Virus record (IMG/VR): IMGVR_UViG_3300023184_004198
Span: 1-64,000 of that record
DNA length: 64,000 nucleotides
Reading direction: 5' to 3' (one strand)
Origin: a virus
Of the stretch, positions 39,515-55,235 are shown one piece after another. Position numbers and translations under genes: made by a program. The first letter of the stretch is position 1, and each line of letters begins with the position of its first letter. The notes beneath the pieces are model-generated. The model saw nothing but the letters and a program-made list of their open reading frames with translations. It made no database searches and had not been told where the DNA came from.

Positions 39515-40654
39515 ATGAGCAACTTCTATTGTGCAGCCCCCTGGCGTGGTTTGCACATCAATCCCCGCGGTGATGTTAAAACTTGTTGTGCTGGCAACCC
39601 CAACATGTTGGGCAATCTCAATGGTCAAACAATAGAGCAAATACTCAACTCAGACTTGATGGCTGGTATACGCACCAGTTTGGCACAAGGACAAGCACAC
39701 GACTATTGTTCAAACTGTGTACGTGCAGAACGTTTTGGTGCAGACTCAGAACGTGCCTGGCACAACAATGTAAACCCTGATTTTGATTATAGCACAGCAG
39801 GCAAAGAATATCACTATCCTGTGATAGTGGATGTGCGTTGGAACACCACTTGCAATTTCAGTTGTAACTATTGTGATCCCAGTGCCAGTAGCAAATGGGC
39901 ACAACTAAAACAAGTACCATTCAAGTCAGGTACAAGACCATACTATGAACAAGTGTGTAACTTCTTGGAACAGTATCATGATCACATACATGAAGTTGCC
40001 TTGGTAGGTGGCGAACCATTATTGCTGCCTGAGAACGAACGTCTGTTAGATGTCATTCCAGAGTCTGCTATTGTTACACTGATCACAAACTTGAATGTGG
40101 ACTTGCAGAATAATCGAATATTCCGCAAACTGTCTGAACGCAACAGAGTAGGTTGGAGCATGAGCTTTGATAACATTGGTGAACGATTTGAATACGTGCG
40201 CTATGGCGGATCTTGGACCATGTTGCAAGAAAATTTAAAAGTCATAAAAAGTCTACACCGTGATCGAGGACACTGGGGCGGTGTGCATGCAGTGTACAAC
40301 ATCTACAATGCCACACGATTGTGTGAATTCAGACAATTTGTTGAGGACACCAATAACACAGTGCTGTGGCAAAACTTGTTTCAACCGGAATACCTTGATC
40401 CATTTTTGCATGGAGTGGATGTGGCTCAAGCAGCGGCTGCAGAGATACGTGAGTTATACGGCATGAACATTGCCACACCTGCAGAACGTGTTTTCTTTGA
40501 TCAAGCACTCAGCAAGTATGATTCTATAACTACTGTACAGCCCAAGATTACCGCACAGTTTAAAAGACACATACAAGCAATTGAAACACAATACCATCCC
40601 AGCACAGCAGGCGAGTTTGCAAGACTATGGCCGGAGATTGCACAATGCTTGTGA
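39515..40654 (+). CDS. Radical SAM protein with N-terminal twitch/SPASM-type cysteines (1)
   Basis: The radical SAM core carries CNFSCNYC (Cys113, 117, 120) and the SAM-binding motif VGGEPLLLP. An N-terminal accessory cluster region begins FYCAAPWRGLHINPRGDVKT, with a CC pair (Cys24-25) and YCSNC near residues 67-71. Such enzymes use a 4Fe-4S cluster and SAM to make a 5'-deoxyadenosyl radical and often modify peptides or carbohydrates. The substrate is unknown. It overlaps the oxygenase gene by 10 nt. It resembles the genes at 41181 and 50589 in the sequence around RWNTTCN and YVRYGGSW. Confidence 0.85.
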   Translation: MSNFYCAAPWRGLHINPRGDVKTCCAGNPNMLGNLNGQTIEQILNSDLMAGIRTSLAQGQAHDYCSNCVRAERFGADSERAWHNNVNPDFDYSTAGKEYHYPVIVDVRWNTTCNFSCNYCDPSASSKWAQLKQVPFKSGTRPYYEQVCNFLEQYHDHIHEVALVGGEPLLLPENERLLDVIPESAIVTLITNLNVDLQNNRIFRKLSERNRVGWSMSFDNIGERFEYVRYGGSWTMLQENLKVIKSLHRDRGHWGGVHAVYNIYNATRLCEFRQFVEDTNNTVLWQNLFQPEYLDPFLHGVDVAQAAAAEIRELYGMNIATPAERVFFDQALSKYDSITTVQPKITAQFKRHIQAIETQYHPSTAGEFARLWPEIAQCL

Positions 40655-41184
40655 CACCGGTAGACAACGAAAACAATTTATTCCGTGTAGAGCATGCTGT
40701 GAGTGCAGAACTGGCTGCCAAAGTTGTAGCCACGGACTGGTTGTCGTTGCCTTGGCAACGCCAGGAAGGCCAAGAAAACTGGGCACGTAGACGTATAACA
40801 GACAGTGCTATACCTTGGATTGATCAGTGGCATCAAGAAATCAGCAGTCAATGGTCAACAATAGAACAATCAGTGGGTAGACAGTTGCATCCTTACTTTG
40901 GCACAGCCTGGTGGCTGGATGAACCTGGATTTACATGCAGTATGCACACTGATGGTGAGTTACCGGGCAGTATGCACCTAATTTGGCGTGGTACAGGAAC
41001 TGCATTTTATTGGCATAAAGATCCTGCGACCCTGCGCTATCAAACACCCGAACAGCCCAATGCTGGTTATGTCATGATCAATCAAGCAGACAGCATAGGA
41101 TATAGACGACTGTTGTGGCATGCCATGCTCACACCGTCAGACTCTTATAGAGTAACTTCATACACATGGATACACCCACAATGA
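40645..41184 (+). CDS. 2OG-Fe(II) oxygenase-like protein
   Basis: The 179-residue protein has GTAWWLDEPGFTCSMHTDGE, where His-x-Asp fits the iron-binding motif. LIWRGTGTAFYW follows, and a distal His lies in RRLLWHAMLTPSDSYRVTSY (HxD...H). This double-stranded beta-helix pattern suggests a 2-oxoglutarate/Fe(II) hydroxylase or prolyl-hydroxylase-like protein. The ATG at 40645 is preferred to 40627 because it gives a short overlap and the typical start MLVTPVDNENNLFRVE. It sits between two radical SAM genes, with the next start overlapping as ATGA, so joint action on one substrate is plausible. Confidence 0.7.
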   Translation: MLVTPVDNENNLFRVEHAVSAELAAKVVATDWLSLPWQRQEGQENWARRRITDSAIPWIDQWHQEISSQWSTIEQSVGRQLHPYFGTAWWLDEPGFTCSMHTDGELPGSMHLIWRGTGTAFYWHKDPATLRYQTPEQPNAGYVMINQADSIGYRRLLWHAMLTPSDSYRVTSYTWIHPQ

Positions 41185-42317
41185 TTTCTTCAAGCCCTAC
41201 ATTTTGCCCTGCGCCCTGGACCAGTCTTAACATTGATCAAGCTGGTAGAGTAAGTCCTTGTTTTCACTGTGTTGAAGTGATGGGCAACGTCAAAATAAAC
41301 ACCATACAAGAAGTTATCACAGGCCCAGAATTTGTCAAGATGAAACAATCAATGGCAAGTGGAGAATGGTTTTCTGGCTGCTCATGGTGCAAACGACTAG
41401 AAGAAACCACAGGAGTCAGCGGCAGAACTACACGACGTGCAAGCAAAGAAACCATAGATCAAATAGACTCTGACCCTGAATTTTTCAAATTAGAACATCT
41501 TGTGGTCAACTGGAGCAACTTGTGCAACCTTGCTTGTGTGTATTGCAATCCTGAAACCAGCACAGCATGGCAAAGCATAAAAAAAATTCCCATCAATCAT
41601 GTCAAAAACGAACACGCAGATTTAATTGAACTGGCCCGCACACAAGGGCACAACATTCAAGGGCTGAGCTTGGGTGGTGGCGAGCCGTTGTTGCAAAAAG
41701 GACTAGAACAGTTTTTAAACTACATTGATGCCAGCAAAGTCAGTGTCATGGTCACTACCAATTTGAGCATGGACCTTGAACACAATGCCATTTATCAACG
41801 ATTAAAAACTTGGCCCAATGTAAGTTGGATGATCAGTTTTGACAATGCTGACAAAGACAAATTTGAATATGTGCGGCACGGTGCAAGCTGGGCACAATTT
41901 GTTGACAACATACAAGTCATGAAACGCGATCGACAAAAAATTCAAGCACACCCGGCATATTCAATCTATTGTGCGTTAGATTTGATGGAATATTATGATT
42001 TTTGTGTCGAACAACAGTTAGATATTTTTTGGTGCGAGTTAAATCATCCTATGGAACTGGATATGCGTCGCCAATCTAATAGACTGCGACAACTTGCAGT
42101 GGAAGAAATTGATCGCGTTGTAACCAAATACAAAGATTGTCAGCAATTGGCCACGGATGTATTGCAACGATATCGCATGACTCTCATTGACAACAGTTAT
42201 TTAAACAACAAAAATTTTATACCAAACATTTTAAAATGGCATAAAACTACTGAAGCAACTTTGAACAAAAGTACAAAATTCGTCGACTTATGGCCTTTGT
42301 TGGCTCAACAATTATAG
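41181..42317 (+). CDS. Radical SAM protein with N-terminal twitch/SPASM-type cysteines (2)
   Basis: CNLACVYC lies at Cys115, 119 and 122, and the SAM motif is LGGGEPLLQKGLEQ. The N-terminus FCPAPWTSLNIDQAGRVSPC, then FHCVEVMGN and WFSGCSWCKRLEE, provides accessory cysteines. The YVRHGASWAQFVDNIQVMK segment is shared with radical SAM proteins 1 and 4, so these are one subfamily. ATG 41181 overlaps the previous stop (ATGA); a start at 41166 is also possible. The substrate is unknown. Confidence 0.85.
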   Translation: MISSSPTFCPAPWTSLNIDQAGRVSPCFHCVEVMGNVKINTIQEVITGPEFVKMKQSMASGEWFSGCSWCKRLEETTGVSGRTTRRASKETIDQIDSDPEFFKLEHLVVNWSNLCNLACVYCNPETSTAWQSIKKIPINHVKNEHADLIELARTQGHNIQGLSLGGGEPLLQKGLEQFLNYIDASKVSVMVTTNLSMDLEHNAIYQRLKTWPNVSWMISFDNADKDKFEYVRHGASWAQFVDNIQVMKRDRQKIQAHPAYSIYCALDLMEYYDFCVEQQLDIFWCELNHPMELDMRRQSNRLRQLAVEEIDRVVTKYKDCQQLATDVLQRYRMTLIDNSYLNNKNFIPNILKWHKTTEATLNKSTKFVDLWPLLAQQL

Positions 42318-42324
42318 GAATGAT

Positions 42325-43077
42325 ATGAAAAAGAATAAAACACTATGGCATTTTGGTACAAAATCAGCCGGACAAACATTTCGATGGATGCCCACAGACA
42401 CTGAAGAAAGTTTTCAAAGACTGATACAAAACGAAGAATACCTTGAGTATTTTCGTAACAAAGGCTGGTTGGATCCCGATGCTATAACATATCGTATAAA
42501 CAGTGCTGGATTCAGGTCTGAAGAGTTTGATCCGCAAGCAGCCAGCATGGTTTCACTGGGGTGCAGTTATACCATTGGTATCGGTCTGCCTGAGCAAGCC
42601 ACATGGAGTTATCTAGTATCGCAGGCCTTGGGGTTGAAAAACTATAATTTAGCATGGGGTGGCACCAGTGCAGACACTTGTTTTATGATAGCCGATCATT
42701 GGTTACCAATATTAAAACCAAAGTTGGTGGTAATGACCGCACCTCCCAAACACCGATTTGATTTGATAACAGAAAAAAATCATCACAGTCATGACACCTA
42801 TCTGCCTAGCAGTGAAATTGGTGGAGCAGATCAAGATGGTTTTGTCAAAACTTGGTTTTTGAATGATCGCAATGCTGACTTAAATAATGCACGTAATCGA
42901 TTTGCAGTAGAAGGTCTGTGTGCTAGATTGGGCATACGGTGTTTGACCTATAACGCTCATGATTGGTTTGCCAAAAGTCGAGATGAAGTAGAATATGCCA
43001 GGGATCGCATGCATGCTGGACCTCGAGGACATCAGACATTTGCAGAAAGAATATTACATGATTGCACCACCAAGTAA
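42325..43077 (+). CDS. SGNH/GDSL-type hydrolase-like protein
   Basis: The 250-residue protein shows SGNH blocks: SLGCSYTIGIGLPEQATW with nucleophile Ser81, NYNLAWGGTSADTCFMI (Gly block), and a C-terminal RDRMHAGPRGHQTFAERIL giving Asp and His. AITYRINSAGFRSEEFD precedes the Ser block, as in phage and bacterial members. It should hydrolyse an ester or acetyl group from a sugar or other acceptor. Its position after two radical SAM genes and an oxygenase suggests part of the same pathway. The gp17 gene starts inside its 3' end. Confidence 0.7.
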   Translation: MKKNKTLWHFGTKSAGQTFRWMPTDTEESFQRLIQNEEYLEYFRNKGWLDPDAITYRINSAGFRSEEFDPQAASMVSLGCSYTIGIGLPEQATWSYLVSQALGLKNYNLAWGGTSADTCFMIADHWLPILKPKLVVMTAPPKHRFDLITEKNHHSHDTYLPSSEIGGADQDGFVKTWFLNDRNADLNNARNRFAVEGLCARLGIRCLTYNAHDWFAKSRDEVEYARDRMHAGPRGHQTFAERILHDCTTK

Positions 43078-44647
43078 AAATTTAGAAACAGTGCTGGTCA
43101 AGGCACCGCACCGCAAAGAAGTATACACAGAAGATGAACTTGTAGAGTTTGCAAAGTGCGCTGATCCTGTTACTGGCCCGTTGTATTTCATGGATAACTT
43201 TTTCTTTATTCAGCATCCCACACGCGGCAAGATGTTGTATCATCCATTTGAGTATCAAAAGCGACTGATTGCTACATATCACAACTACCGATATTCAATA
43301 TCCTTGATGCCTCGACAAACAGGCAAGTCAACGTCGGCCGCTGGTTACTTGTTGTGGTACGCAATGTTTGTGCCAGATTCAACCATCCTTGTGGCTGCAC
43401 ACAAATACACAGGCGCACAAGAGATCATGCAACGTATTAGATACGCATATGAACTGTGCCCTAATCATATCCGAGCAGGTGCTACCAGTTACAACAAGAA
43501 TTCATTGGAATTTGAAAACGGATCACGTATTGTAGCGCAGACCACAACAGAAACAACAGGACGGGGTATGAGTATTTCACTCTTGTACGCTGATGAGTTT
43601 GCATTTGTGCGACCCACTATTGCTAGAGAGTTTTGGACTTCTATTTCACCTACCTTGGCCACAGGTGGTAAGGCTATTATTACAAGTACTCCCAACTCGG
43701 ACGAAGATCAATTCGCATACCTGTGGAAAGGTGCCAACAAGACCATGGACGAACATGGCAACACCACTGAACTGGGCATCAATGGGTTCCGTGCATTTAG
43801 AAGCAACTGGCGTGAGCACCCTGACAGAGATGAGCAGTGGGGACTAGAGCAACTAGCACAGTTGGGTGAAGATCGATTTCGTAGAGAAATGGAATGTGAA
43901 TTTGTTATCAACGACGAAACACTAATTGCTCCTACCAAACTCTTGGACCTGGAAGGCATAGAGCCTCAGCGCAGAACTGGCCAAGTGCGTTGGTACAAAA
44001 CTCCAGTCAAAGACAAAATATACATCGTGGCGTTGGATCCTAGTTTAGGCACTGGTGGTGATCCTGCTGCCATACAGGTATTTGAAGCAGATACCACAGA
44101 ACAAGTGGCTGAATGGCGGCACAATCGCACAGACATTCCCACACAAGTAAAACTGCTGGCAGACATTGTAAAAGAGTTATACGATATCACAAAAGACGAC
44201 AAAAAGATCTATTACAGTGTGGAAAACAATACCATTGGCGAAGCTGCCTTGATAAGCATAAACGAGTATGGGGAAGAAAACATACGAGGATATTTTTTGA
44301 GCGATAACAGTGTAACAGGCACAACTGGGCGTAGATTCCGCAAAGGATTCAACACCACAAACAAAGCCAAGCTCACTGCCTGCAACAAGTTCAAAATTTT
44401 AGTGGAATCAGGACGCATGAAACTGTATAGCAGACCCTTGATTTCGGAACTCAAAACTTTTGTTGCCCATGCCGGTAGTTATGCTGCTAAACCTGGGGAA
44501 ACGGACGATCTTGTAATGGGTTCACTGTTGGCAGTGCGCATGCTGATGATGTTGCAAACATATCATGCAGAATTGGATTCGCACATGAAAGATCATGGCG
44601 ACAATATCATAGAACCTATGCCTTTTATAGTTAGTATGGCACGCTAA
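43058..44647 (+). CDS. 17: Terminase large subunit, T4 gp17 family
   Basis: The DNA packaging ATPase and nuclease. The Q-type motif is YHPFEYQKR, Walker A is MPRQTGKST (about residues 84-92), and Walker B is SLLYADE with Asp179/Glu180. A coupling motif is ITSTPNSDEDQF. The nuclease domain starts with IVALDPSLGTGGDPA (Asp327) and contains YSVENNTIGEA and ETDDLVMGSLLA. The ATG at 43058 (MIAPPSKNLETV) overlaps the hydrolase gene by 20 nt and gives 529 residues (T4: 610). It is displaced 11 kb from gp16. Confidence 0.95.
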   Translation: MIAPPSKNLETVLVKAPHRKEVYTEDELVEFAKCADPVTGPLYFMDNFFFIQHPTRGKMLYHPFEYQKRLIATYHNYRYSISLMPRQTGKSTSAAGYLLWYAMFVPDSTILVAAHKYTGAQEIMQRIRYAYELCPNHIRAGATSYNKNSLEFENGSRIVAQTTTETTGRGMSISLLYADEFAFVRPTIAREFWTSISPTLATGGKAIITSTPNSDEDQFAYLWKGANKTMDEHGNTTELGINGFRAFRSNWREHPDRDEQWGLEQLAQLGEDRFRREMECEFVINDETLIAPTKLLDLEGIEPQRRTGQVRWYKTPVKDKIYIVALDPSLGTGGDPAAIQVFEADTTEQVAEWRHNRTDIPTQVKLLADIVKELYDITKDDKKIYYSVENNTIGEAALISINEYGEENIRGYFLSDNSVTGTTGRRFRKGFNTTNKAKLTACNKFKILVESGRMKLYSRPLISELKTFVAHAGSYAAKPGETDDLVMGSLLAVRMLMMLQTYHAELDSHMKDHGDNIIEPMPFIVSMAR

Positions 44648-44650
44648 ATA
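44645..44650 (+). promoter_or_regulatory. Late promoter box abutting the 879-residue core protein gene
   Basis: TAAATA overlaps the gp17 stop codon; CACAACT and ATG 44658 follow. No Shine-Dalgarno sequence is present. Confidence 0.55.
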
Positions 44651-44657
44651 CACAACT

Positions 44658-47297
44658 ATGACAATGGAAGCATTACCTCAAGATCTAGCAGATTTCTTGG
44701 TCACACGCAATTTTGACCCAGAATATTTCAACAAAAAAGGCGATCCCTCAGAAGCCAGCGAAGCCACTACCATGAAATTTGACTATGTTGCTGGTTCGGG
44801 CAAAAACTATGGCACAGCAGTATGTGTGATTGCTGATGATGAGCTCAGTTTGTTCTACGGAGACAATCTGGGCCGTGGCATGGAACCCGAAGACAAACAA
44901 GAGTGGTTTGACTTCTTAGAACAACTCAGCAACACTGCTGCCAGCCATGGTGCAACATGGAGTCCTACAGAAATCAACAAACTCAAACACACCTTGGCTG
45001 GTATTGCTGCTATCAAAGAAGGGTTGTTTGAAGGCTACTACGGCAATCGCAAGGTCAGTTACATGGGCGAACAAACTCAAGCTCGCTTGGTAATCAACCA
45101 CAATCGTGTGCTGGGCGAAAACGACAAGCGTTATCGCTATGTGGAAAGCCTGTATATTGAAACAGCAGATCAAGAACGTTTTCGACTGCCATTCAAAAGT
45201 CTAGCAGCCGGCAGAGCCATGCTGGAACATGTACGTCAAGGCGGACGTCCTTACGACATTCGTGGCAATCACATCACAGAGATAGTGAGCGAAATGGCTG
45301 TGCTCAGTCGTTTCAACCGTGCGCAACACCATCGTGTGTACGAAGGTGTCACACAAGAACTTGTGGAAAGCGCACAGCAATACTATCATAACCTACAAGA
45401 AACCATGAAGCATCTTGGCAGCCCACGCGGCTATCGAGCATACTTTGAAAGCTGGGCTCCTGACCAAGTTGGTGAAGCCGAAGCCCTAGTAGAAAATCTA
45501 CGCGACCTGTTTGTAGAACAAACATTGGATGCTAGAATTGAAGCTGCCTTGCCCACACTGGCCAAGATACAAAAACAAGGAAACAACATGAAAGAAGCGC
45601 AAATATTTGAAAACTGGGTCAACCAGTTGAGCGAAGGAACTTGGGCATTGCCAGAAACTCCTGAGCAAATGGAAAAACTCAACCAACTCATGAGTGGCGA
45701 ACTTATTGTTGGTCCAGATGCCACCAATGCCACAGAGCAGTTGTATGACATTGTGGGCGATGATGAACTGTTTGATATTTTGAACGACTTGGCTGACCGT
45801 AGTGAAGGTCGCGCCAATGTTTGGGACGACTCAGATGTACAACGCAGACTGGCTGAACTGGGCATTCAAACCCCTCAGAGCACACAAGCAGAACCTGCTG
45901 ACGTTGAACAAGACACAGCACCCCCAATGATGGAAACTCGCGAAATCCGTAACAAAAAAGGCAGATTACTAGGAACATGGGATGGTCGCGTGTTCACCAT
46001 GGATCCTGAAACAGAACAAATATGGGCTGAAGAAAATGGTCCAGAATGGGTTGAAGATTTTAAAGCCAAAAAAACAGCAGAACTACAACAGCAATCAGCG
46101 CCATCTGAAGACATGATCAAATACTATGCCAACGAATTGGAAAAATATGATGTCCAGGCTGGCCAACCAAGACAGTCTAGACAACAGTATTATGATCTAG
46201 CGGCACAGATGGTATCAGGTGCCCTGGCGGAAGGCGAAGAAGCAGACAACCCCAAGTACAGCATGTCTAACCCAGGAAAACTCAGCAATGACGAATACAA
46301 AGATAGTTTGAATCGTCGATACGGTCAACCTGATTTGGATACTTCAAAGTTCAACAAGTCACATCAAGATTACTATGATCGGAACCCCAGTTTCAAACAA
46401 AGCGGAAAAGAAATTGTCAGTCCTGGTGACGGACGTCTTGCTTCAAAAGTTGTGCCAGCAGTGACTGATACAAACGTAGGTCGTATCCCAATGAACACAC
46501 CCGGTGGTAGTGCCATGCGCGGAGGTGGAGGTATGGGCGGAGGCACAGGACTCGGTGGTAGAAAACCAGGAGATGACTGGAGACTCAATATGCTGAAATT
46601 AGAGAACGCCGACTTGGCCCGCATGTTACAACATGCTGGCGTACCACTGCAAGAAGGTGTGCTGACTGATTCAACAGGCAGCACACTGGAACACATCAAA
46701 GACACATACAAGCGTGACGTCAAAGACTTCATGCAAACTGGCGAAATGAGTCGTCATTTGGAGCAAGTATTGTATGATTATTACTATGACGATATGCCAT
46801 ATGGCGCGAAAACTGGTGAAGACATAGATACATCTGAATGGATCAGTGATCGTTTTGCCGAAGATCTTGGCATGAATGAAAACCTAATCACCCCAATGAT
46901 CATGCCAGTAAGCGAAGGATCATGCAACATGACCATGGAAGGTTCTTACTGCCCAGAACACGGCCTGGCTGAATGTGGTGGCATGTATGAAGATGAGTAC
47001 ATACCACGTGTTGAAATCCGTGGTTTTGGTCCTGATTTTGAAGACCTTCCAGCAGGAAAAAAACTAATCAATCCAATGCAGCCACGTGTCCATAATGCGC
47101 TGTCTCCACTCACACCTGGAGACAGTAGTCCAATGCCTCCAGTGGCCAATGTTGACTTGACAGTGGATGAAGGCAACGATGATCCAATCAATTCAAACTC
47201 CGCCATTACTGGAAGTTATTATGAGGGCAAGGAATACCAATCTCAAGAAGGCGATGCACTTTTGGCAAGAATAAAATCACTGGCTTTGCTCAAATGA
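44658..47297 (+). CDS. Large conserved core-type virion protein next to the terminase (879 aa)
   Basis: Recognisable segments are FENWVNQLSEGTWALPETPE followed by MEKLNQLMSGELIVGPDATN and DIVGDDELFDIL (about residues 317-390), and a Cys/His motif CNMTMEGSYCPEHGLAEC (about 755). Both recall internal or core proteins of aquatic T4-like phages. The N-terminal ~150 residues (YGTAVCVIADDELSLFYGDN) form a separate globular part. A Gly-rich linker (MRGGGGMGGGTGLGG) lies near residue 620. It shares charge-rich composition and a small Cys motif with the 1150-residue protein. A prohead-core or ejected role is inferred. Confidence 0.6.
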   Translation: MTMEALPQDLADFLVTRNFDPEYFNKKGDPSEASEATTMKFDYVAGSGKNYGTAVCVIADDELSLFYGDNLGRGMEPEDKQEWFDFLEQLSNTAASHGATWSPTEINKLKHTLAGIAAIKEGLFEGYYGNRKVSYMGEQTQARLVINHNRVLGENDKRYRYVESLYIETADQERFRLPFKSLAAGRAMLEHVRQGGRPYDIRGNHITEIVSEMAVLSRFNRAQHHRVYEGVTQELVESAQQYYHNLQETMKHLGSPRGYRAYFESWAPDQVGEAEALVENLRDLFVEQTLDARIEAALPTLAKIQKQGNNMKEAQIFENWVNQLSEGTWALPETPEQMEKLNQLMSGELIVGPDATNATEQLYDIVGDDELFDILNDLADRSEGRANVWDDSDVQRRLAELGIQTPQSTQAEPADVEQDTAPPMMETREIRNKKGRLLGTWDGRVFTMDPETEQIWAEENGPEWVEDFKAKKTAELQQQSAPSEDMIKYYANELEKYDVQAGQPRQSRQQYYDLAAQMVSGALAEGEEADNPKYSMSNPGKLSNDEYKDSLNRRYGQPDLDTSKFNKSHQDYYDRNPSFKQSGKEIVSPGDGRLASKVVPAVTDTNVGRIPMNTPGGSAMRGGGGMGGGTGLGGRKPGDDWRLNMLKLENADLARMLQHAGVPLQEGVLTDSTGSTLEHIKDTYKRDVKDFMQTGEMSRHLEQVLYDYYYDDMPYGAKTGEDIDTSEWISDRFAEDLGMNENLITPMIMPVSEGSCNMTMEGSYCPEHGLAECGGMYEDEYIPRVEIRGFGPDFEDLPAGKKLINPMQPRVHNALSPLTPGDSSPMPPVANVDLTVDEGNDDPINSNSAITGSYYEGKEYQSQEGDALLARIKSLALLK

Positions 47298-47305
47298 TAT
47301 AAATA
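47298..47305 (+). promoter_or_regulatory. Perfect late promoter TATAAATA upstream of gp32
   Basis: An exact TATAAATA lies just after the stop of the preceding gene. A transcript from here would run into the hairpin terminator at 47325-47359. Confidence 0.7.
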
Positions 47306-47308
47306 CAC

Positions 47309-47337
47309 TTGACACGTAGACAAGAAGCGCATATACT
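47309..47337 (+). promoter_or_regulatory. Strong sigma70-type promoter of gp32
   Basis: TTGACA (47309-47314) and TATACT (47332-47337) are separated by exactly 17 bp. The -10 lies in the loop of the overlapping terminator hairpin. Confidence 0.85.
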
Positions 47338-47359
47338 ACTACAGTGTTTGCGCTTTTTT
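47325..47359 (+). terminator. Terminator hairpin enclosing the gp32 promoter -10
   Basis: The stem AAGCGCA/TGCGCTT (47325-47331 and 47349-47355) closes a 17-nt loop and is followed by a T-run to 47359. Transcripts from upstream form the whole hairpin. Transcripts from the sigma70-type promoter start inside it and lack the left arm. Confidence 0.7.
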
Positions 47360-47419: not shown

Positions 47420-47437
47420 TATCAAGGAGAAAAAACT

Positions 47438-48433
47438 ATGGCATCATTAGCAGAAATCAGAGCAAGACTACAGGCAGCAGAGGGTAACAAAGGTGGGCAA
47501 TCCACCGGTGGAGACAATTCAATTTATCCACATTGGAACATGGAAGAAGGGCAAAGTGCAACACTGCGATTCCTTCCCGATGCAAATATAAAAAACACAT
47601 TTTTCTGGCAAGAACGAGCAATGATTCGTTTACCATTCGCTGGCATCAAAGGCGAAGGTGATTCTAAACAAGTGTACGTGCAAGTACCTTGTGTGGAAAT
47701 GTGGGGCGAAGCATGTCCTATCTTGGCAGAAGTACGCACCTGGTTCAAGGACAAGAGCCTTGAAGAAATGGGTCGCAAATACTGGAAGAAACGTTCATAC
47801 ATTTTCCAAGGATTTGTGCGTGAGAACCCACTGGCCGACGACAAGACACCAGAGAATCCAATCCGACGTTTCATCATCGGACCACAAATCTTTGCCACCA
47901 TCAAAGGTGCGCTGATGGATCCTGAATTGGAAGAAATGCCCACAGACACACTGCGTGGTTTGGACTTCCGTATCACTAAAACCAGCAAGGGTGGCTATGC
48001 TGATTACAGTACAAGCAAGTGGGCACGTAAAGAATCAGCATTAACTGAAGCCGAACAAGCCGCAGTTGCCGCACATGGTGCGTTTGACTTGAGCACATTC
48101 CTGCCTAAGAAGCCAGGCGATGTCGAACTCAAAGTCATCAAAGAGATGTTCGAAGCAAGTGTGGATGGACAGCCTTACGACACAGAGCGTTGGGGTCAAT
48201 ACTTCCGTCCTGCTGGTGTTCAAGCACCCGGCGGTGCCGGAGCCGCACATGCTGACGAGGATACTCCTGCGCCAGCAGCCAAGCCTGTTGCCAAAGCAGC
48301 GCCTGCTCCAGCAGACAATGGGTTTGATGACGACGACACTCCCACAGCAGCCGCACCAGTGGCCAAGCCTGCAGCCAGTGGACAAAATGCCCAGGACATC
48401 CTGGCCATGATTCGTAGCCGTCAAGCCAAGTAA
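47438..48433 (+). CDS. 32: Single-stranded DNA-binding protein, T4 gp32 family
   Basis: gp32 coats ssDNA during replication and recombination. The N-terminus SLAEIRARLQAAEGNKGG is the cooperativity region. The core has EGQSATLRFLPDANIKNTFF, VQVPCVEMWGEACPILAEVR, KKRSYIFQGFVREN and RRFIIGPQIFATIKGAL. Only two cysteines are seen where T4 gp32 has its His/Cys3 zinc site, so zinc binding may be altered or absent. The acidic/Ala-Pro C-terminal tail (DDDDTPTAAAP) fits the partner-binding tail. Length is 331 residues (T4: 301). The stop overlaps the sulfotransferase-like start (TAATG). Confidence 0.9.
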   Translation: MASLAEIRARLQAAEGNKGGQSTGGDNSIYPHWNMEEGQSATLRFLPDANIKNTFFWQERAMIRLPFAGIKGEGDSKQVYVQVPCVEMWGEACPILAEVRTWFKDKSLEEMGRKYWKKRSYIFQGFVRENPLADDKTPENPIRRFIIGPQIFATIKGALMDPELEEMPTDTLRGLDFRITKTSKGGYADYSTSKWARKESALTEAEQAAVAAHGAFDLSTFLPKKPGDVELKVIKEMFEASVDGQPYDTERWGQYFRPAGVQAPGGAGAAHADEDTPAPAAKPVAKAAPAPADNGFDDDDTPTAAAPVAKPAASGQNAQDILAMIRSRQAK

Positions 48434-49053
48434 TGCGAACGGCTCTGGACACAGAGCTGTTTCCAAAACTGTGTGAAGTGGTAGAAATGCCACTTCACAA
48501 TCAATGGGTTTATCTGATTCAGAAGAATGGAAACAGTAGTTTGCGGATTCAGCAGTCAAGAGACAATCTTGCTGTGTTCACCAATGACGAAATAAGTGCT
48601 CTTGATTATGTAGATGTGTATATCCGTAATCCCAGAGCCAGGTATGTCAGTGGCATCAACACTTACTTGCAACATCTTCAACGCGACCACCCTGAGTTAG
48701 ATTACAACACCGCATTTTGGTTTGCCCGACGTTATAAATTTTTAAACACACACTACTTGCCGCAATTTCATTGGTTGGCAAATCTCAGCCAGTATTTGCG
48801 CACAGATACAAAAATACGTTTTAGAGATTTTAAAAATTTCAGTCTGATTGTCAATATAAATCATGACGCATACATAACAAAACCAACACAGGTTTTTGTT
48901 GAAAAATTATTTCAAGATGACAAGTCAATCGAACTTTGGTTGTTCTTGGATCAAATTTTGTTGGATCTAGCAGGCCAAGAAATGACCTGGACACAATTGT
49001 TAGATCATTACCAACGTTACCACCCTGATATTATAAAATATGTATTGCCCTAG
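48433..49053 (+). CDS. Sulfotransferase-like protein
   Basis: The 206-residue protein has VYLIQKNGNSSLRIQQSR, which fits the 5'-phosphosulfate loop (KxGxxSL), and VDVYIRNPRARYVSGINTYL, which fits the 3'-phosphate-binding Arg/Ser motif of sulfotransferases. It would transfer sulfate from PAPS to a carbohydrate or other acceptor. It is translationally coupled to gp32 (TAATG) and overlaps the next radical SAM gene by 14 nt. No PAPS-synthesis genes are seen here. Confidence 0.65.
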   Translation: MRTALDTELFPKLCEVVEMPLHNQWVYLIQKNGNSSLRIQQSRDNLAVFTNDEISALDYVDVYIRNPRARYVSGINTYLQHLQRDHPELDYNTAFWFARRYKFLNTHYLPQFHWLANLSQYLRTDTKIRFRDFKNFSLIVNINHDAYITKPTQVFVEKLFQDDKSIELWLFLDQILLDLAGQEMTWTQLLDHYQRYHPDIIKYVLP

Positions 49054-50017
49054 ACTAGATCATTTTGTTCGTTTTAATTTTGATGGATCAGTTGGTCGTT
49101 GTGGTCATATGACCGCAGCACCGCAGTTTGAAACACTGCAACAAATGGATTCCAGCGATTGGCTTGCAAAGATTCGTACTTCAATGAGCCAAGATGTTTG
49201 GCCGGAAGAATGTGTTCGTTGCAAAGAAGTTGAAATCATTGGTAATAAAAGTGTTAGACAACAATCATTGGATAGACATGCACCGCTGTTGGATGTTAGA
49301 TCCGATTATCTTGTGCTGGGCGGCGTACTAGACAATGTGTGCAACAGTGCATGCCAAACTTGCAATGAAACACTCAGCACCAAGATAGGTAGTTTGCATT
49401 CAAAAGAATACACCAAAATCAACAACACCGCGTTGATTGACACATTGCCAGTGGAACGCATTGTGCAAATGGACATCAACGGTGGTGAGCCTAGTACCAG
49501 TCCTAACTATTTAAAACTGTTGGAAAATTTACCGCCCAACGTCAAACATGTACGAGTCAATACCAATGGCAGCAGATTAATCACAGTGCTGCCTAAATTA
49601 ATTGAACGTGGCATCAAAGTCACTGTGACCGTGAGCCTGGATGGCATTGATCGTAGACACGATTATGTAAGGTGGCCCATCAAATGGCAGGATGTTGAAC
49701 AAAACATTCAAGCATATCAAACCATGGGCTTGCATGAATTAAATACCTGGACCACAGTGAGCGCATTAAACATTGGTGATTTGAAGAACATTTTTTCTTA
49801 TGTACAACAGAACAATTTAAAAAATTCTTGGGCATTGTTAGAAAATCCTTCTGTGCTGAGTGTAAAGTACAGCAATCATTTAACAAGGCAAGCAGATGTG
49901 CCAGACGAACTAAAATCCGTTGTAGCACAAGGACCAGACAACACTGTGGAATTACAGTTGTGGACCACAGCACAAGATCAGTTGCGTGGCATCAAACTCT
50001 GGGATTATTTTCAATGA
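49040..50017 (+). CDS. Radical SAM protein (3)
   Basis: The motif CNSACQTC lies at Cys101, 105 and 108, with the SAM motif MDINGGEPSTSPNY. The N-terminus is accessory-type: MYCPRLDHFVRFNFDGSVGR, then CGHM and WPEECVRCKEVE. VTVSLDGIDRRHDYVRWPIK is a typical radical SAM barrel segment. The C-terminus ends GIKLWDYFQ. It overlaps the SDR gene as ATGA. It is more divergent from proteins 1, 2 and 4. The substrate is unknown. Confidence 0.82.
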   Translation: MYCPRLDHFVRFNFDGSVGRCGHMTAAPQFETLQQMDSSDWLAKIRTSMSQDVWPEECVRCKEVEIIGNKSVRQQSLDRHAPLLDVRSDYLVLGGVLDNVCNSACQTCNETLSTKIGSLHSKEYTKINNTALIDTLPVERIVQMDINGGEPSTSPNYLKLLENLPPNVKHVRVNTNGSRLITVLPKLIERGIKVTVTVSLDGIDRRHDYVRWPIKWQDVEQNIQAYQTMGLHELNTWTTVSALNIGDLKNIFSYVQQNNLKNSWALLENPSVLSVKYSNHLTRQADVPDELKSVVAQGPDNTVELQLWTTAQDQLRGIKLWDYFQ

Positions 50018-50589
50018 AAATAGCCATCACAGGTCATACCGCAGGTATAGGTCAGGCATTTGCAAAAATTCTTTCAGGCCGTGGACATGAAATCATAGGC
50101 CTAAGCAAACGACATGGCGACAACATTAGAAACACTGTTAAAATTTTAGAAAAAATAACACCCTGTGACATGTTCATAAACAATGCACAGGCCGGATATG
50201 CTCAGACTGAATTGTTGTATGCTGTGTGGCAAGCCTGGCAAGATCAACCAGGCAAATACATATGGTGCATTGGCACAATGATGACACAGTCACCAGTGGA
50301 TCAGGCCGTACCAGGATACAGCGACCTAGTAATGAGTCAATATCGAAATCAAAAAATTGCATTGGATGATGCAATAACCCAACTGCGCAACAAAAAACAC
50401 ATGCCAGTTATTACCATGATCAGACCAGGTGCAATAGCCACACAACCTGACCAACTGTCTGAATGGCCTTATTGTGATGTTGATACATGGGCCGATACAG
50501 TGGTGTCAACCATGGTGCTGGCCAACAAACAAGGCATGCGATACAATGAACTGGCATTGTGTGCTGCCAAGAACTCAATGCCTTTGTAA
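50014..50589 (+). CDS. Short-chain dehydrogenase/reductase (SDR)
   Basis: The 191-residue protein starts MKIAITGHTAGIGQAF (TGxxxGIG cofactor loop). It has MFINNAQAGYAQ (NNAG-like), YRNQKIALDDA with Tyr-x3-Lys of the active site, and TMIRPGAIATQP after it. It should oxidise or reduce an alcohol or carbonyl with NAD(P). The start at 50014 is chosen because it overlaps the previous stop as ATGA and begins the Rossmann fold. It lies between two radical SAM genes, and the next start overlaps its stop (TAATG). Confidence 0.8.
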   Translation: MKIAITGHTAGIGQAFAKILSGRGHEIIGLSKRHGDNIRNTVKILEKITPCDMFINNAQAGYAQTELLYAVWQAWQDQPGKYIWCIGTMMTQSPVDQAVPGYSDLVMSQYRNQKIALDDAITQLRNKKHMPVITMIRPGAIATQPDQLSEWPYCDVDTWADTVVSTMVLANKQGMRYNELALCAAKNSMPL

Positions 50590-51746
50590 TGGATGCCAAA
50601 CAAATATTAACCAACCGTGCATTTTGTCCTGTGCCGTGGACTGGCATCATGTACAACTTTGACGGCACAGTTAAAAACTGTATTCGCAGTGCTGAACCCA
50701 TTGGCAACATCAACAACAATACCATTGAAGAAATTCTAAGAGATGATTATCTAATCAAATCAGACATGCATGCTGGGATAAAATTTGGTCGCTGTGATCC
50801 TTGCTACAATTTAGAACAAGATAAAAACAATTTCAATATCATAAGTGACAGAGTGTTTTATCTCAAAGAATTGCGCGATGTAGACAATACTTTGTATGAT
50901 ACCGCCAACCATGCTTTGCACACTGTGGACATACGCTGGAGCAATCTATGTAATTTTGCCTGTGTGTACTGCAATCCAGAATTCAGTAGCAAATGGGCCA
51001 GCGAGCGCAACATAGTCATACACACTCCAGAGGACCAAAAACGTGAAGCATTCAAACAATACATTTTTGATCGTGCTGGGCAACTCAAACATGTGTATCT
51101 AGCCGGTGGTGAACCGCTGTTGATGAAAGAGAATTTGGAATTTTTAGAACTGTTAAAAAAGGTCAATCCAAAGATCAATCTCAGAGTCAACACCAATCTC
51201 AGCAAAGTAGACACACGCATATTTGATTTGATCTGCGAATTTAAAAATGTGCATTGGATTGTGAGCATAGAGGCTTTGGAAGCAGAATACGAATACATAC
51301 GGCATGGCGGGGCATGGCAAGATTTTGTGGATAACTTGCAAGTTATCAAACACCTGAATCACAAAATATCATTCAACATGTTACACTTTTTGTTAAACCA
51401 TTTCAGTATTTTTGATTGTGTGGATTACCTATCTGGACAAGGATTTCACAACAACAGTTTTATAATTGGGCCAGTGACCGGACCGGCATACCTAAATATT
51501 AGACATCTGCCGGACAATGTGTTAAACTCAGTGAAGAAGATGCTGTCAGATCGTGTTGCTCAACAACCAGGTTATTTGTTGGAAAACGGTTACAAAAACA
51601 TGTTGACACATCTAGATCAGCCGTTTGAAAAAGATCTAGCAGGGTCCTTTGAAAAAATAGCCGACATGGATCAACGGCGTAAATTAGACAGCAGAGCAAT
51701 TTTTAAAGATTTATACAAGGAAGAAAATCATGGGAAAACCATTTGA
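50589..51746 (+). CDS. Radical SAM protein with N-terminal twitch/SPASM-type cysteines (4)
   Basis: CNFACVYC lies at Cys121, 125 and 128; the SAM motif is LAGGEPLLMKENLEF. The N-terminus FCPVPWTGIMYNFDGTVKNC, followed by GNINNNTIEEIL and RCDPCYNLEQ, gives accessory cysteines. YIRHGGAWQDFVDNLQVIKH matches proteins 1 and 2, so it is a paralog of them. ATG 50589 overlaps the SDR stop. Its 3' end overlaps uvsX by 17 nt, so the recombinase is translationally linked to this gene. Confidence 0.85.
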   Translation: MDAKQILTNRAFCPVPWTGIMYNFDGTVKNCIRSAEPIGNINNNTIEEILRDDYLIKSDMHAGIKFGRCDPCYNLEQDKNNFNIISDRVFYLKELRDVDNTLYDTANHALHTVDIRWSNLCNFACVYCNPEFSSKWASERNIVIHTPEDQKREAFKQYIFDRAGQLKHVYLAGGEPLLMKENLEFLELLKKVNPKINLRVNTNLSKVDTRIFDLICEFKNVHWIVSIEALEAEYEYIRHGGAWQDFVDNLQVIKHLNHKISFNMLHFLLNHFSIFDCVDYLSGQGFHNNSFIIGPVTGPAYLNIRHLPDNVLNSVKKMLSDRVAQQPGYLLENGYKNMLTHLDQPFEKDLAGSFEKIADMDQRRKLDSRAIFKDLYKEENHGKTI

Positions 51747-52785
51747 CGTAAGCAAGTTCCGTAAGGAAATTACCAAAAGCATTGACGGACTGTCAATTGG
51801 CTTTAACGATCCCACAGACTGGATCTCAACAGGCAATTATGCACTAAACTATTTGATCTCAGGCGATTTCAATCGCGGCATTCCCCTAGGCAAGGTCACG
51901 GTGTTTGCTGGCGATTCTGGCGCAGGCAAATCATACATTTGTTCAGGCAATATCATCAAGAATGCACAAGAGCAAGGTATTTTTGTTGTGCTGATTGATA
52001 GTGAGAACGCCTTGGACGAAGATTGGCTCAAAGCTTTGGGTGTGGACACAAGCGAAAGCAAACTGTTGAAACTTTCAATGGCCATGATTGATGACGTGGC
52101 CAAGACCATATCAACATTCATGAGCGACTACAAAGCATTACCCGAAGGCGAACGTCCCAAGGTCATGTTTGTGATTGACAGCTTGGGCATGTTGTTGACT
52201 CCCACAGACGTAAACCAGTTTGATGCAGGCGAAATGAAGGGTGACCTTGGTCGTAAACCCAAAGCTCTCACTGCCTTGGTGCGTAACTGTGTGAACATGT
52301 TTGGTTCATACAATGTAGGTTTGGTTTGTACCAATCACACATACGCAAGTCAGGACATGTTTGACCCCGATGATAAAATCAGTGGTGGACAAGGCTTTAT
52401 CTACGCCAGTTCAATTGTTGTGGCCATGAAGAAGATGAAGCTCAAAGAGGACGAAGACGGCAACAAAGTGTCAGATGTCAACGGTATTCGTGCAGGCTGT
52501 AAGGTTATGAAAACACGCTATGCCAAGCCTTTTGAAGGTGTGCAGGTCAAGATTCCTTACACCACAGGTATGAGTCCTTACTCAGGCTTGGTGGACTTGA
52601 TTGAAAAGAAAGAATTGCTCAAGCGTGAAGGCAACAGCCTGGTGTTTACCACGTCAGATGGCGAGATCATCAAGAAGTTCCGCAAAGCCTGGGAAAAGAA
52701 CGATGATGGTTGCTTGGACAAAGTCATGGCAGACTTCAAGAACATCAAGTCAGAGGTAAGTACGTCTGACGCTGTTGAAGAATAA
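51730..52785 (+). CDS. uvsX: RecA-like recombinase UvsX
   Basis: The ATP-dependent strand-exchange protein of T4 recombination-dependent replication. Walker A is GDSGAGKS (61-68) in VTVFAGDSGAGKSYICSGN, and Walker B is VMFVIDSLGML. VLIDSENALDEDWLKALGVD and VCTNHTYASQDMFDPDDKIS, followed by GGQGFIYASS, are family hallmarks. At 351 residues it is close to T4 UvsX (391). It starts inside the preceding radical SAM gene. Confidence 0.93.
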   Translation: MGKPFDVSKFRKEITKSIDGLSIGFNDPTDWISTGNYALNYLISGDFNRGIPLGKVTVFAGDSGAGKSYICSGNIIKNAQEQGIFVVLIDSENALDEDWLKALGVDTSESKLLKLSMAMIDDVAKTISTFMSDYKALPEGERPKVMFVIDSLGMLLTPTDVNQFDAGEMKGDLGRKPKALTALVRNCVNMFGSYNVGLVCTNHTYASQDMFDPDDKISGGQGFIYASSIVVAMKKMKLKEDEDGNKVSDVNGIRAGCKVMKTRYAKPFEGVQVKIPYTTGMSPYSGLVDLIEKKELLKREGNSLVFTTSDGEIIKKFRKAWEKNDDGCLDKVMADFKNIKSEVSTSDAVEE

Positions 52786-52792
52786 ACACAAA

Positions 52793-53491
52793 ATGAATAA
52801 AACCGTACAAGTAACTGATGCCAATCCTGTGGTTGAAATACGTTCAAAATATCCCAAACTTTATGTCATGTGGGTAATTGGTATACGGTGTAATTTTGCT
52901 TGTAGTTATTGCCCCGATGTTTGGCATGATAAACACAGCCCACATAAAACGTTGGATGAATTAAAAGATGCTTGGCGCAAACTTGTACAACAGGCACAAA
53001 ATAATTCTAAGAGATTGTCTGTGAGTATTCTTGGTGGTGAACCCACACTGAATCCAAATTTGTTATCTTTTTTGCAATGGGTAAAAGTATACTATCGTCA
53101 ACATAATGTTGAAGTAGCAGTTTATTCCAATGGCACTGCTTCACTTGATGATTACAAAAAATTAAGCAAATATTGTAATTTTAATTTTTCCACTCATAGT
53201 GAATTTATGAACGAATCTAAGTTTTTTTCCACTGTAACAAGTTTGTCTCAATATGTTAAAGAACAGAATATAAATTGTCATGTAAATGTGTTGGTCATGG
53301 ATGAAGAGTGGAACAAAGACCGAACAGTAGAATACATTGCATATCTCAAAGAAAATAATATAAATTATCAAGTATCTCCAGTTGAGCCAGTGTGGCAACC
53401 GGGAACAAATTGGCCCGAACAAAATATAAAGTCCAGTGCCGGGACAAAAAAAACAAACAAGGTAAATTTTTATGACCGTATTTCTAACTGA
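52793..53491 (+). CDS. Radical SAM core protein (5), apparently lacking its C-terminal cluster domain
   Basis: CNFACSYC lies at Cys33, 37 and 40, with the SAM motif SILGGEPTLNPNLLSF. The barrel continues to CHVNVLVMDEEWNKDRTVEY. The frame then ends after a Lys-rich tail, and the expected auxiliary-cluster domain is found in the next, overlapping frame (53472-53792). ATG 52793 is preferred to a TTG at 52775. The overlap contains a T5 run (53467-53471), so a natural split, programmed frameshift or indel are all possible. Length is 232 residues. Confidence 0.8.
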   Translation: MNKTVQVTDANPVVEIRSKYPKLYVMWVIGIRCNFACSYCPDVWHDKHSPHKTLDELKDAWRKLVQQAQNNSKRLSVSILGGEPTLNPNLLSFLQWVKVYYRQHNVEVAVYSNGTASLDDYKKLSKYCNFNFSTHSEFMNESKFFSTVTSLSQYVKEQNINCHVNVLVMDEEWNKDRTVEYIAYLKENNINYQVSPVEPVWQPGTNWPEQNIKSSAGTKKTNKVNFYDRISN

Positions 53492-53792
53492 ATCACCAAA
53501 CAGTGATTGTACAGCGATTCTAGCAGATGGCACTGAAATTGATATCGAATCTTGGGACTTATGGCGCAATAATATTGCTTATTTTCAAGGTTGGAATTGT
53601 GCAGCCGGCATGGATAGTATAGTAGTTGAAAGTGATTTTCAAGTTTGGTCAGGAGTTTGTAGAAATAATAATCTAGGAAATTTAATGGATGAAAATTTTT
53701 CATTACTAAAGGAACCAACTGTATGTGTAAAAAATCAGTGTACTACTTGTATTGCTGATTTAATCAACGATAAAAAAATGTCAAAGGAATAA
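53472..53792 (+). CDS. SPASM-like C-terminal part of a radical SAM protein, encoded separately
   Basis: The 106-residue product contains FQGWNCAAGMDSIVVESDF, VWSGVCRNNNLGNLM and VCVKNQCTTCIADL. The spacing of Cys residues resembles the auxiliary [Fe-S] domain that normally ends radical SAM proteins. It is in the +1 frame relative to the gene at 52793 and starts with ATG within TATGA. It could be re-initiated after the upstream stop, fused by frameshifting, or act as a partner subunit. Its AT-rich base composition matches the upstream piece. Confidence 0.65.
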   Translation: MTVFLTESPNSDCTAILADGTEIDIESWDLWRNNIAYFQGWNCAAGMDSIVVESDFQVWSGVCRNNNLGNLMDENFSLLKEPTVCVKNQCTTCIADLINDKKMSKE

Positions 53793-53793
53793 A

Positions 53794-54057
53794 ATGTCAA
53801 CAGAAGTAGCAAGCGAAATTTGGGGCGAATTAAAACGATACGTTAATGTAGTAGATCGTATAGATGCTGCTGAGAGCATAGTGTCTATCTTGATTGATCA
53901 TGACTACGACGTAGAAGAAATTCGTGATGCCTTTAAAGGAGATTCAGACATTAAAAAAGCCTTGACTGCGTACTTAGACCATGACAAAGATTACGCAGAA
54001 GAAGAGGAAGAAGAGTTTGATGATGAAGACAACTACAATCAAGAAGATGATTACTGA
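53794..54057 (+). CDS. Small acidic conserved phage protein (87 aa)
   Basis: The N-terminal helical part, WGELKRYVNVVDRIDAAESI then DYDVEEIRDAFKGDSDIKKA, is followed by a very acidic tail (AEEEEEEFDDEDNYNQEDDY). Similar proteins are recalled near uvsX in other T4-like phages; the function is unknown. It lies between the split radical SAM gene and radical SAM gene 6, with TGATG coupling to the latter. An acidic-tail partner protein is the simplest reading; a radical SAM peptide substrate is a weak alternative. Confidence 0.6.
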   Translation: MSTEVASEIWGELKRYVNVVDRIDAAESIVSILIDHDYDVEEIRDAFKGDSDIKKALTAYLDHDKDYAEEEEEEFDDEDNYNQEDDY

Positions 54058-55235
54058 TGTCTGCAGACAGAGATTACTATTGCTCTTATAAATTTAAATA
54101 TTTAAAGATTGATTTGGTATCCAATGCCACATATAACTGTCATGCGGCAAAGCAGCATAACATTGACTTCCAATGGTTATCTAAGAACAAAGGAAATTTA
54201 TTCAATACTGATATTAATGTTTCAGAAAGAAACATGATGTTGGTTAATCAACGAAATCGTAGTTGTGAAGAAATTTGTTGGCCACTAGAAGATCAAGGAG
54301 CCATAAGTCCTCGATTGTGGCAAAATGGACAGATCAAAACACATACCAAAGTCCACACACAACCCGAAATATTAGAAATAAAACTAAATGACAATTGCAA
54401 CTTGTCTTGCTCTTATTGTTGTAAAGAATACAGCAGTGCTTGGCGAAGAGACTTGTTTAACAATGGTCAATACAATGTTGACGTCAATGAAAGATACAAA
54501 CTCACGGACCGTGACAAATTGATGTTTAAAATAAGTCAGAATGAAGTTAAAAACACTGATCGTTTTCAACAGTTGTTGTATGAAATAAAAAACTTCAGCA
54601 AAAAACTTGAAGAAATAGTTATAACAGGTGGTGAGCCATTGCTTGACAATCAACTGTTTGACATAATAGAAGCAGTGTCAGACGGTTCAGCAAAAATTAA
54701 CATATACACCGGCATGGGAGTGGATTATAAAAGATTTACAAGAATGTTAGATCGAATTAAACAAGTACCCAATGCCATGATATCGGTCAGTGCAGAATGT
54801 ACAGATAAATTTTATGAGTTCAATAGGTTTGGTAGTCAGTGGCATGATTTTTTAGAAAAAATAAAAGTATTGATTGATTCGCAGATTGAATTTAGATTCA
54901 GCACATGCATTACCAATTTAACAGTGATTGATTTGGCATCTTTTATAAGACAATTTGCCAATTGCCGTATAGGTTTGGTTTTTGCACATCAGCCCGGCAT
55001 GATGGCTCCATATGTATTGGACCCAAGTACCAAACAACAGATCATACAAGACATTCAATCGTTGCCTGATCATTATCGGACTCAGATTACACAGTCCATA
55101 CAGGCCGATCCCAGTGAAACACAACGGCAACAAATGTCAGAATTTTTAAAAGAATATGCTGCTCGTAGACATCTTGACCTGAGCATTTACCCATCAAGTT
55201 TTTTAGAATGGTTGGATATCCATGTGGTACAGTAA
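54057..55235 (+). CDS. Radical SAM protein (6)
   Basis: CNLSCSYC lies at Cys114, 118 and 121, followed by another Cys (CCKEYSSAW), and the SAM motif is ITGGEPLLDNQLFD. The N-terminus (YYCSYKFKYLKIDLVSNATY, CHAAKQHNIDF, CEEICWP) differs from that of proteins 1, 2 and 4 and may hold another cluster or substrate-binding part. FNRFGSQWHDFLEKIKVL matches the YVRHGxSWxxF segment of the paralogs. It overlaps both neighbours. The substrate is unknown. Confidence 0.82.
   Translation: MSADRDYYCSYKFKYLKIDLVSNATYNCHAAKQHNIDFQWLSKNKGNLFNTDINVSERNMMLVNQRNRSCEEICWPLEDQGAISPRLWQNGQIKTHTKVHTQPEILEIKLNDNCNLSCSYCCKEYSSAWRRDLFNNGQYNVDVNERYKLTDRDKLMFKISQNEVKNTDRFQQLLYEIKNFSKKLEEIVITGGEPLLDNQLFDIIEAVSDGSAKINIYTGMGVDYKRFTRMLDRIKQVPNAMISVSAECTDKFYEFNRFGSQWHDFLEKIKVLIDSQIEFRFSTCITNLTVIDLASFIRQFANCRIGLVFAHQPGMMAPYVLDPSTKQQIIQDIQSLPDHYRTQITQSIQADPSETQRQQMSEFLKEYAARRHLDLSIYPSSFLEWLDIHVVQ

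Follow-up and report, generated by a model that had tools for sequence, protein, structure and literature searches.

A 64,000-base stretch of viral DNA, hereafter the window (bases 1–64000 of the 212,614-base virus record IMGVR_UViG_3300023184_004198), encodes six radical S-adenosylmethionine (rSAM) proteins together with a 2-oxoglutarate (2OG)-Fe(II) oxygenase-like protein, an SGNH/GDSL hydrolase-like protein, a sulfotransferase-like protein and a short-chain dehydrogenase/reductase (SDR). These ten genes form at least three blocks that are gained and lost independently between core genes; one block is a four-gene cassette, sulfotransferase–rSAM3–SDR–rSAM4 (48433–51746), which fills the slot between gp32 and uvsX and consists of sulfotransferase+rSAM3 as one enzyme pair and SDR+rSAM4 as the other. 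On balance, the blocks appear to be exchangeable modules for glycan tailoring in a T4-like jumbo phage; a substrate, a reaction order and a target surface are inferred below. The record is that of a large uncultured freshwater phage of 212.6 kb, assigned to the T4-like jumbo phages because it encodes gp32-like, UvsX and UvsY proteins, a DnaB-type helicase and a primase; the TerL of the window is 51% identical to the terminase large subunit of the PA5oct jumbo-phage group.

Two enzyme pairs in the gp32/uvsX slot

The cassette and its borders comprise the following genes, all on the plus strand.

47438–48433, +, gp32-like single-stranded DNA-binding protein, left border of the slot (phrog_1192, E 2e-67)
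48433–49053, +, sulfotransferase-like protein, cassette pair 1 (3′-phosphoadenosine-5′-phosphosulfate (PAPS) motifs; AlphaFold pLDDT 91; Foldseek E > 0.2)
49040–50017, +, rSAM3, short N-terminal twitch rSAM, pair 1 (NF033640 140.2 bits, under the cut-off; invariant Cys)
50014–50589, +, SDR, short NAD(P) reductase, pair 2 (TGxxxGIG, invariant Y109xxxK113; SDR matches among PDB chains)
50589–51746, +, rSAM4, N-terminal twitch rSAM, pair 2 (NF033640 248.1 bits; invariant Cys; Foldseek matches)
51730–52785, +, UvsX-like recombinase, right border of the slot (phrog_97, E 2e-67)

Across 80 loci anchored on rSAM4, the order gp32–sulfotransferase–rSAM3–SDR–rSAM4–uvsX is nearly constant; at loci L063 and L065 the SDR was undetected and rSAM3 runs straight into rSAM4. 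Since this sample was chosen by similarity to rSAM4, itself a member of the cassette, a second sample was anchored on UvsX, giving a census of 62 phage contigs that carry both gp32 and uvsX. The site was empty (60–83 bases) in 18 contigs; the complete cassette was present in 9, one of which has an additional gene, sulfotransferase and rSAM3 alone in 1, and other genes in 34. One phage with an empty slot (L104) has a UvsX 98% identical to that of the window. Further samples were anchored on the SDR and on rSAM3. Among 59 newly listed rSAM3-anchored loci, some of them re-cut pieces of known contigs, all four genes were present in 52, sulfotransferase–rSAM3 alone lay between gp32 and uvsX in 5, and the contig ended inside the cassette in 2. 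Conversely, SDR–rSAM4 is accompanied by a different neighbour gene at L326/L327, and a second lineage (L201, L207 and L215) has the swapped order SDR–rSAM4–sulfotransferase–rSAM3. In L201, primase and helicase genes with 39% and 55% identity to their counterparts in the genome containing the window precede the cassette; an SGNH homologue (GCSxTxG) adjoins the swapped-order cassette after the helicase, and another rSAM gene lies upstream. Because each pair occurs without the other (the 5 loci and L326/L327) and the pairs also occur in swapped order, the cassette is a unit made up of two enzyme pairs.

The same gene order was found in hundreds of relatives, far above chance. An earlier note on this DNA, made from its sequence alone, had named independent occurrence of the genes in advance as the outcome that would speak against a shared system; for two of the blocks, the neighbourhood survey instead found conserved shared neighbours. 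The note's proposal of a modification pathway holds in so far as conserved sets exist and tailoring is their most plausible role, but a single multi-step pathway or cluster for all ten genes is rejected, as the blocks vary independently and the slots hold differing tailoring genes. In addition, TerL (42995), a virion-protein-like gene (44658), gp32 (47438) and UvsX (51730) lie between members of the ten-gene set and UvsY (55222) follows it, so that the set does not constitute one operon-like cluster.

The genes that replace the cassette in the gp32/uvsX slot are largely of sugar- or metabolite-tailoring types and include, among other alternatives, a formyltransferase, hexapeptide acyltransferases, GDSL enzymes, an Asp/Arg hydroxylase and a B12-rSAM. 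A family of ~320 amino acids with a DHxxGFD-like motif, without a Pfam match in the one member scanned, recurs in the slot of L113, L116, L117, L134, L138, L142, L150 and L177. Two amidinotransferase-like genes (weak ADI-fold matches) at record positions 123036–123962 and 124979–126175 also have relatives that fill this slot in other phages.

Allele exchange within the cassette was analysed in 21 phages with all genes intact, using Spearman correlations of pairwise identities, which are not independent and to which no p-value was attached. Phage pairs are ranked similarly by gp32, UvsX and UvsY identity (0.78–0.83), whereas the correlation is 0.12 between rSAM3 and SDR and 0.22 between rSAM3 and rSAM4. 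In phage pairs that are close in gp32 (91–100%), UvsY (92–100%) and UvsX (85–100%), the median SDR identity is only 55%. The sequences thus suggest that cassette alleles recombine freely while the flanking genes remain similar, and such fast exchange is consistent with a surface-exposed product.

Block 2, the uvsX/uvsY slot and a split rSAM enzyme

The remaining genes under study lie upstream of the terminase and in the slot between uvsX and uvsY.

39515–40654, +, rSAM1, N-terminal twitch rSAM, block 2 (NF033640 207.7 bits; PF13186 and PF04055)
40627–41184, +, 2OG-Fe(II) oxygenase-like protein, block 2 (HxD...H...R kept in all homologues; without a Pfam match)
41166–42317, +, rSAM2, N-terminal twitch rSAM, block 2 (NF033640 195.7 bits)
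42325–43077, +, SGNH/GDSL hydrolase-like protein, esterase or acyltransferase, block 2 (weak PF13472, E 0.0025; S81, D227 and H230 conserved)
52775–53491, +, rSAM5, the half of a split pair that contains the catalytic rSAM core (ATG at 52793 an alternative start; PF04055)
53472–53792, +, SPASM-like auxiliary-cluster protein of 106 amino acids, partner of rSAM5 (C43, C63, C85, C90 and C93 conserved)
54057–55235, +, rSAM6, divergent N-terminal twitch rSAM, uvsX/uvsY slot (NF033640 161.6 bits, slightly under the cut-off; patchy presence)

Block 2 keeps a fixed order, rSAM1–oxygenase–rSAM2–SGNH, from which any member is absent in some relatives; in oxygenase-anchored loci, an rSAM gene lies within 300 bases of the oxygenase in 32 of 43. 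The uvsX/uvsY slot is filled by rSAM5/SPASM and rSAM6 in a minority of relatives. A 340-kb relative (L247, 8048–15695) carries five N-terminal twitch rSAMs of the family in about 7.7 kb with an oxygenase-like gene close by; this run is surrounded by glycosyltransferase-like and carbamoyltransferase-like genes.

The 52793/53472 locus, counted in the earlier note as one of six rSAM loci, does contain a real rSAM core (starting at 52775 or 52793), but 53472–53792 is a separate SPASM-like gene. None of the other viral loci found has the two genes fused, and one of them places the genes in a different relative frame (of the 14 rows listing such pairs, three come from the window itself, and two pairs of rows are either overlapping copies of a single contig or loci that are almost identical). 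A Bdellovibrionales contig, L287, also carries the rSAM core and the SPASM-like protein as two genes, with identities of 30% and 33%. A frameshift error is ruled out by these loci, and because the SPASM gene is separate both in the other viral loci and in L287, the pair represents a genuine split enzyme. The auxiliary cluster for rSAM5 is probably supplied in trans.

Conserved motifs and the rSAM family

All six rSAM genes are real, each having CxxxCxxC and GGEP motifs and a Pfam Radical_SAM match (E = 3e-17 to 2e-8), as are the four partner genes, whose catalytic motifs are conserved. Translational coupling, as the earlier note suggested, is plausible: junctions overlap by 1–28 nucleotides, with a single 7-nucleotide gap before the SGNH gene. 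In the oxygenase, H107xD109...H165...R175 is 100% conserved among 13 distinct sequences, and no Pfam family was reached. The SGNH protein retains G79-[CD]-S81, G113 and D227xxH230, with a Pfam score under the cut-off. The sulfotransferase-like protein has a PAPS-type K31NG.SS loop (K31 in 35/36 sequences) and an R65...R70.xS73G motif (R65 in 36/36, S73 in 29/36). In 35 SDR sequences, TGxxxGIG and Y109xxxK113 are invariant; the true start of this gene is 50014, which creates an ATGA overlap with rSAM3, and not 49828. The invariant cysteines are C3, C21, C58, C61, C101, C105 and C108 in the rSAM3 alignment and C13, C31, C69, C72, C121, C125 and C128 in that of rSAM4. Catalytic residues of the cassette proteins are retained at about 50% identity. 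Recent tandem duplication of one rSAM gene is ruled out, as the paralogues are just 16–26% identical.

A four-cysteine N-terminal twitch ahead of the rSAM core is indicated by the invariant cysteines in rSAM3 and rSAM4 and by a SPASM match before the core in rSAM1, rSAM2 and rSAM4; rSAM5 is without a twitch. The curated cut-off of NF033640 (N_Twi_rSAM), 170 bits, is exceeded by rSAM1, rSAM2 and rSAM4, which are members of the family, and is not reached by rSAM6, rSAM3 and rSAM5 (36.6 bits); rSAM3 and rSAM6 are divergent relatives. The AlphaFold model of rSAM4 has a mean pLDDT of 82, low at residues 71–91, and its Foldseek matches are SuiB, BlsE, SkfB and anSME, with AprD4 weaker (E 4e-4). The predicted fold is thus that of a SPASM-type rSAM, which does not discriminate between a peptide and a sugar as substrate.

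No bacterial relative emerged when genomes were scanned with the rSAM4 alignment; a subsequent motif-pattern scan returned 37 stretches. Bacterial members of the family, for which there was no matched control set, adjoin carbamoyltransferase (4) and PhyH oxygenase (3) genes, glycosyltransferases, GDP-mannose-type epimerases and ABC-2/polysaccharide exporters. Runs of two to four such rSAM genes occur in predatory bacteria (L259, L284 and L266/L273; Bdellovibrionia and Bacteriovoracaceae contigs). The cassette sulfotransferase and SDR had no match in 50,697 phage records, and phage isolates yielded no relative of the cassette and none of rSAM1.

Modular glycan tailoring as the favored reading

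Gene context decides where the fold of rSAM4 does not, and glycan tailoring is favored because of the slot occupants, the glycosyltransferase genes, the bacterial neighbours and the arrangement in Vibrio phage K566 described below. Just downstream in the window, the same genome encodes the following.

55762–56562, +, nucleotidyltransferase plus sugar-phosphate isomerase/cupin (PF01467, PF01050)
56559–57242, +, GT8-like glycosyltransferase (PF01501)
59814–60512, −, GT25 glycosyltransferase of lipopolysaccharide (LPS) type (PF01755)
61132–61782, −, FkbM methyltransferase (PF05050)

In the proposed mechanism, each N-terminal twitch rSAM would use its SAM cluster and one auxiliary Fe-S cluster to generate a radical on a nucleotide- or lipid-linked sugar, which could then undergo dehydration, oxidation or epimerization. 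The SDR would reduce the resulting carbonyl, in the manner of AprD3 after AprD4, while the product may be sulfated by the sulfotransferase, hydroxylated by the oxygenase, and acylated or deacylated by the SGNH enzyme. Glycosyltransferases of the phage or host would attach the sugar to host LPS or capsule or to virion glycans, altering receptor recognition. A more specific version is doubtful: a two-stage, phage-specific radical sugar pathway in which rSAM4 and the SDR deoxygenate or epimerize a carrier-linked sugar, and a further site is generated and then capped by rSAM3 with the minimal sulfotransferase, would yield a sulfated, radical-edited sugar of a previously undescribed kind, with alleles and modules exchanged in fixed slots in the manner of antigenic variation.

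Several observations weigh against glycan tailoring. The fold match of the sulfotransferase is not significant, its six best Foldseek hits being heparan sulfotransferases at E > 0.2 and TM about 0.3, and for rSAM4 the peptide-modifying SPASM enzymes SuiB, SkfB and anSME rank as high as the sugar-nucleotide enzyme BlsE. NF033640 members with a known substrate were not found in the sources searched. Co-occurrence of neighbouring genes partly reflects physical linkage, the gp32/uvsX slot is itself situated among replication genes, and IscU occurs in a 151-kb relative having no match to the rSAM family.

Alternative functions

The most serious competitor, itself unlikely, is that the substrate of the twitch/SPASM rSAMs is a ribosomal peptide or a virion protein, the enzymes acting in the manner of sactipeptide and sulfatase maturases. 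SPASM/twitch rSAMs are mostly peptide maturases, three of the best rSAM4 matches belong to such enzymes, and the best PDB profile match of rSAM3 is SkfB. An operon for a ribosomally synthesized and post-translationally modified peptide (RiPP) is nevertheless rejected for the cassette, where the four genes overlap and no small open reading frame, and thus no precursor gene, lies between them; moreover, sulfotransferase, SDR and SGNH proteins are atypical RiPP partners, and the bacterial neighbours are polysaccharide genes. A virion protein may still be the substrate.

A role in DNA hypermodification, in which a modified base or nucleotide would be the substrate and the phage DNA would be protected, is improbable. 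Phage DNA hypermodification is known to involve rSAM enzymes and glycosyltransferases, and the slots adjoin the replication genes gp32, uvsX and helicase, but no homologue of thymidylate synthase/hydroxymethylase, QueC or QueD was found in the 212.6-kb record, which is possibly incomplete, and the FkbM, GT25 and acetyl- and formyltransferases better suit surface glycans.

Production of a small molecule, whether secreted or kept inside the cell, that acts against competitors or host defence is very improbable; such a compound would be aminocyclitol- or nucleotide-like. An rSAM paired with an SDR is reminiscent of AprD4/AprD3 in apramycin synthesis (PMC5461906), and amidinotransferase-like genes occur in the genome and among the slot occupants; the cassette, on the other hand, is without a transporter or resistance gene, and viperin models match weakly through the generic rSAM core. 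A viperin-like defence was rejected, the best score being 43.8 bits against an NF038283 cut-off of 180, with PADLOC matches spanning the generic core only.

Least probable of all is the absence of any shared function, with unrelated accessory genes gathering in tolerant slots and travelling together by linkage: the slots do accept many gene types and the blocks vary independently, but the pairs persist through reordering, relocation and strong recombination, and their catalytic residues are kept despite the divergence noted above.

Other genes of the record

The whole record contains ~12 rSAM genes; those outside the six comprise four NF033640 matches (68215, 77899, 102646 and 133278) and two of another type (174758 and 210333). 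It also encodes IscU (NifU_N; PF01592, E 3e-52; 87623–88015) and an IscA-type Fe-S carrier (PF01521, E 3e-18; 89700–90023), which may assist cluster loading. A link between this Fe-S supply and the rSAMs is plausible and not specific: IscU was present in 7 of 20 relatives, whose records are fragments, including one without any rSAM-family member, and its use as a marker tied to rSAMs is unsupported.

An APS-kinase-like P-loop protein of 133 amino acids (record positions 179663–180064; 31.3 bits, level with a generic AAA/kinase model) is a candidate PAPS source for the sulfotransferase. Possible host-surface or nutrient genes encode a Porin_4-type outer-membrane porin (117604–118758) and a phosphate-binding-like (PBP_like_2) protein (118808–119857), both on the minus strand, and a TctC-type tripartite tricarboxylate transporter receptor protein is encoded at 180061–181026. 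The TctC-type and Porin_4 proteins hint at a betaproteobacterial host.

Comparison with known systems

The general kind of system described here, T4-like phages with multiple rSAMs and rSAM cassettes in LPS-linked hypervariable islands, has already been published. No earlier description was found in the open-licence literature of the two-pair sulfotransferase/rSAM/SDR/rSAM cassette, of its slot exchange or of the split rSAM/SPASM pair. For the N-terminal twitch rSAMs, a large family, the sources searched give no known substrate; here the family is present as two minimal pairs with one partner each, conserved across many uncultured phages. Small testable units are thereby available: rSAM4 with the SDR, rSAM3 with the sulfotransferase, and rSAM5 with the SPASM protein encoded next to it. 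From the slot census, tailoring genes are seen to be exchanged among T4-like phages at sites flanked by core replication genes, a finding relevant to how these phages alter host surfaces or hide their own.

The pairing of an rSAM with an NAD(P)H reductase resembles that of AprD4, an rSAM diol dehydratase acting on paromamine, with its NADPH reductase AprD3 (PMC5461906), and AprD4 is among the fold matches of rSAM4. In the cassette, by contrast, the twitch domain is N-terminal and the similarity is at the superfamily level only; the pairing is observed and the chemistry is proposed by analogy. The genes share with NF033640 the four-cysteine N-terminal twitch followed by the rSAM core, but rSAM3 and rSAM6 score under its cut-off and rSAM5 has a different architecture; the sources searched give this family no function. 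Among cultured phages, Vibrio phages K566 and nt-1 are likewise T4-like, at about 250 kb, and in K566 N-twitch-like rSAMs adjoin GT8 glycosyltransferases; their rSAM identity to the present proteins is only 23–25%, and they are without the sulfotransferase–rSAM–SDR–rSAM cassette.

The density of rSAM genes, regarded in the earlier note as high for a phage, is indeed high but has precedents. In the 183-kb T4-like marine viral genome TARA_ERS488813_N000010, reported in 2017, 12 rSAM genes accompany a gene for an Fe-S carrier (PMC5332604), much as the present record combines its rSAMs with IscU and IscA; the excerpts on that genome count genes, and a cassette, partner enzymes and slot exchange are not described in them. 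In pelagimyophages, rSAM gene cassettes were reported in 2020 in hypervariable islands: the host recognition cluster is such an island with LPS-type glycosyltransferases, and relatives differ by their rSAM cassettes (PMC7029224). Exchange between relatives and linkage to glycan genes, the marks of a hypervariable island, are both found here, whereas location and content are unlike those published: the pelagimyophage cluster is one island in the structural region, and the phage described here has several small slots between replication and packaging core genes, one of them holding a fixed four-gene cassette.

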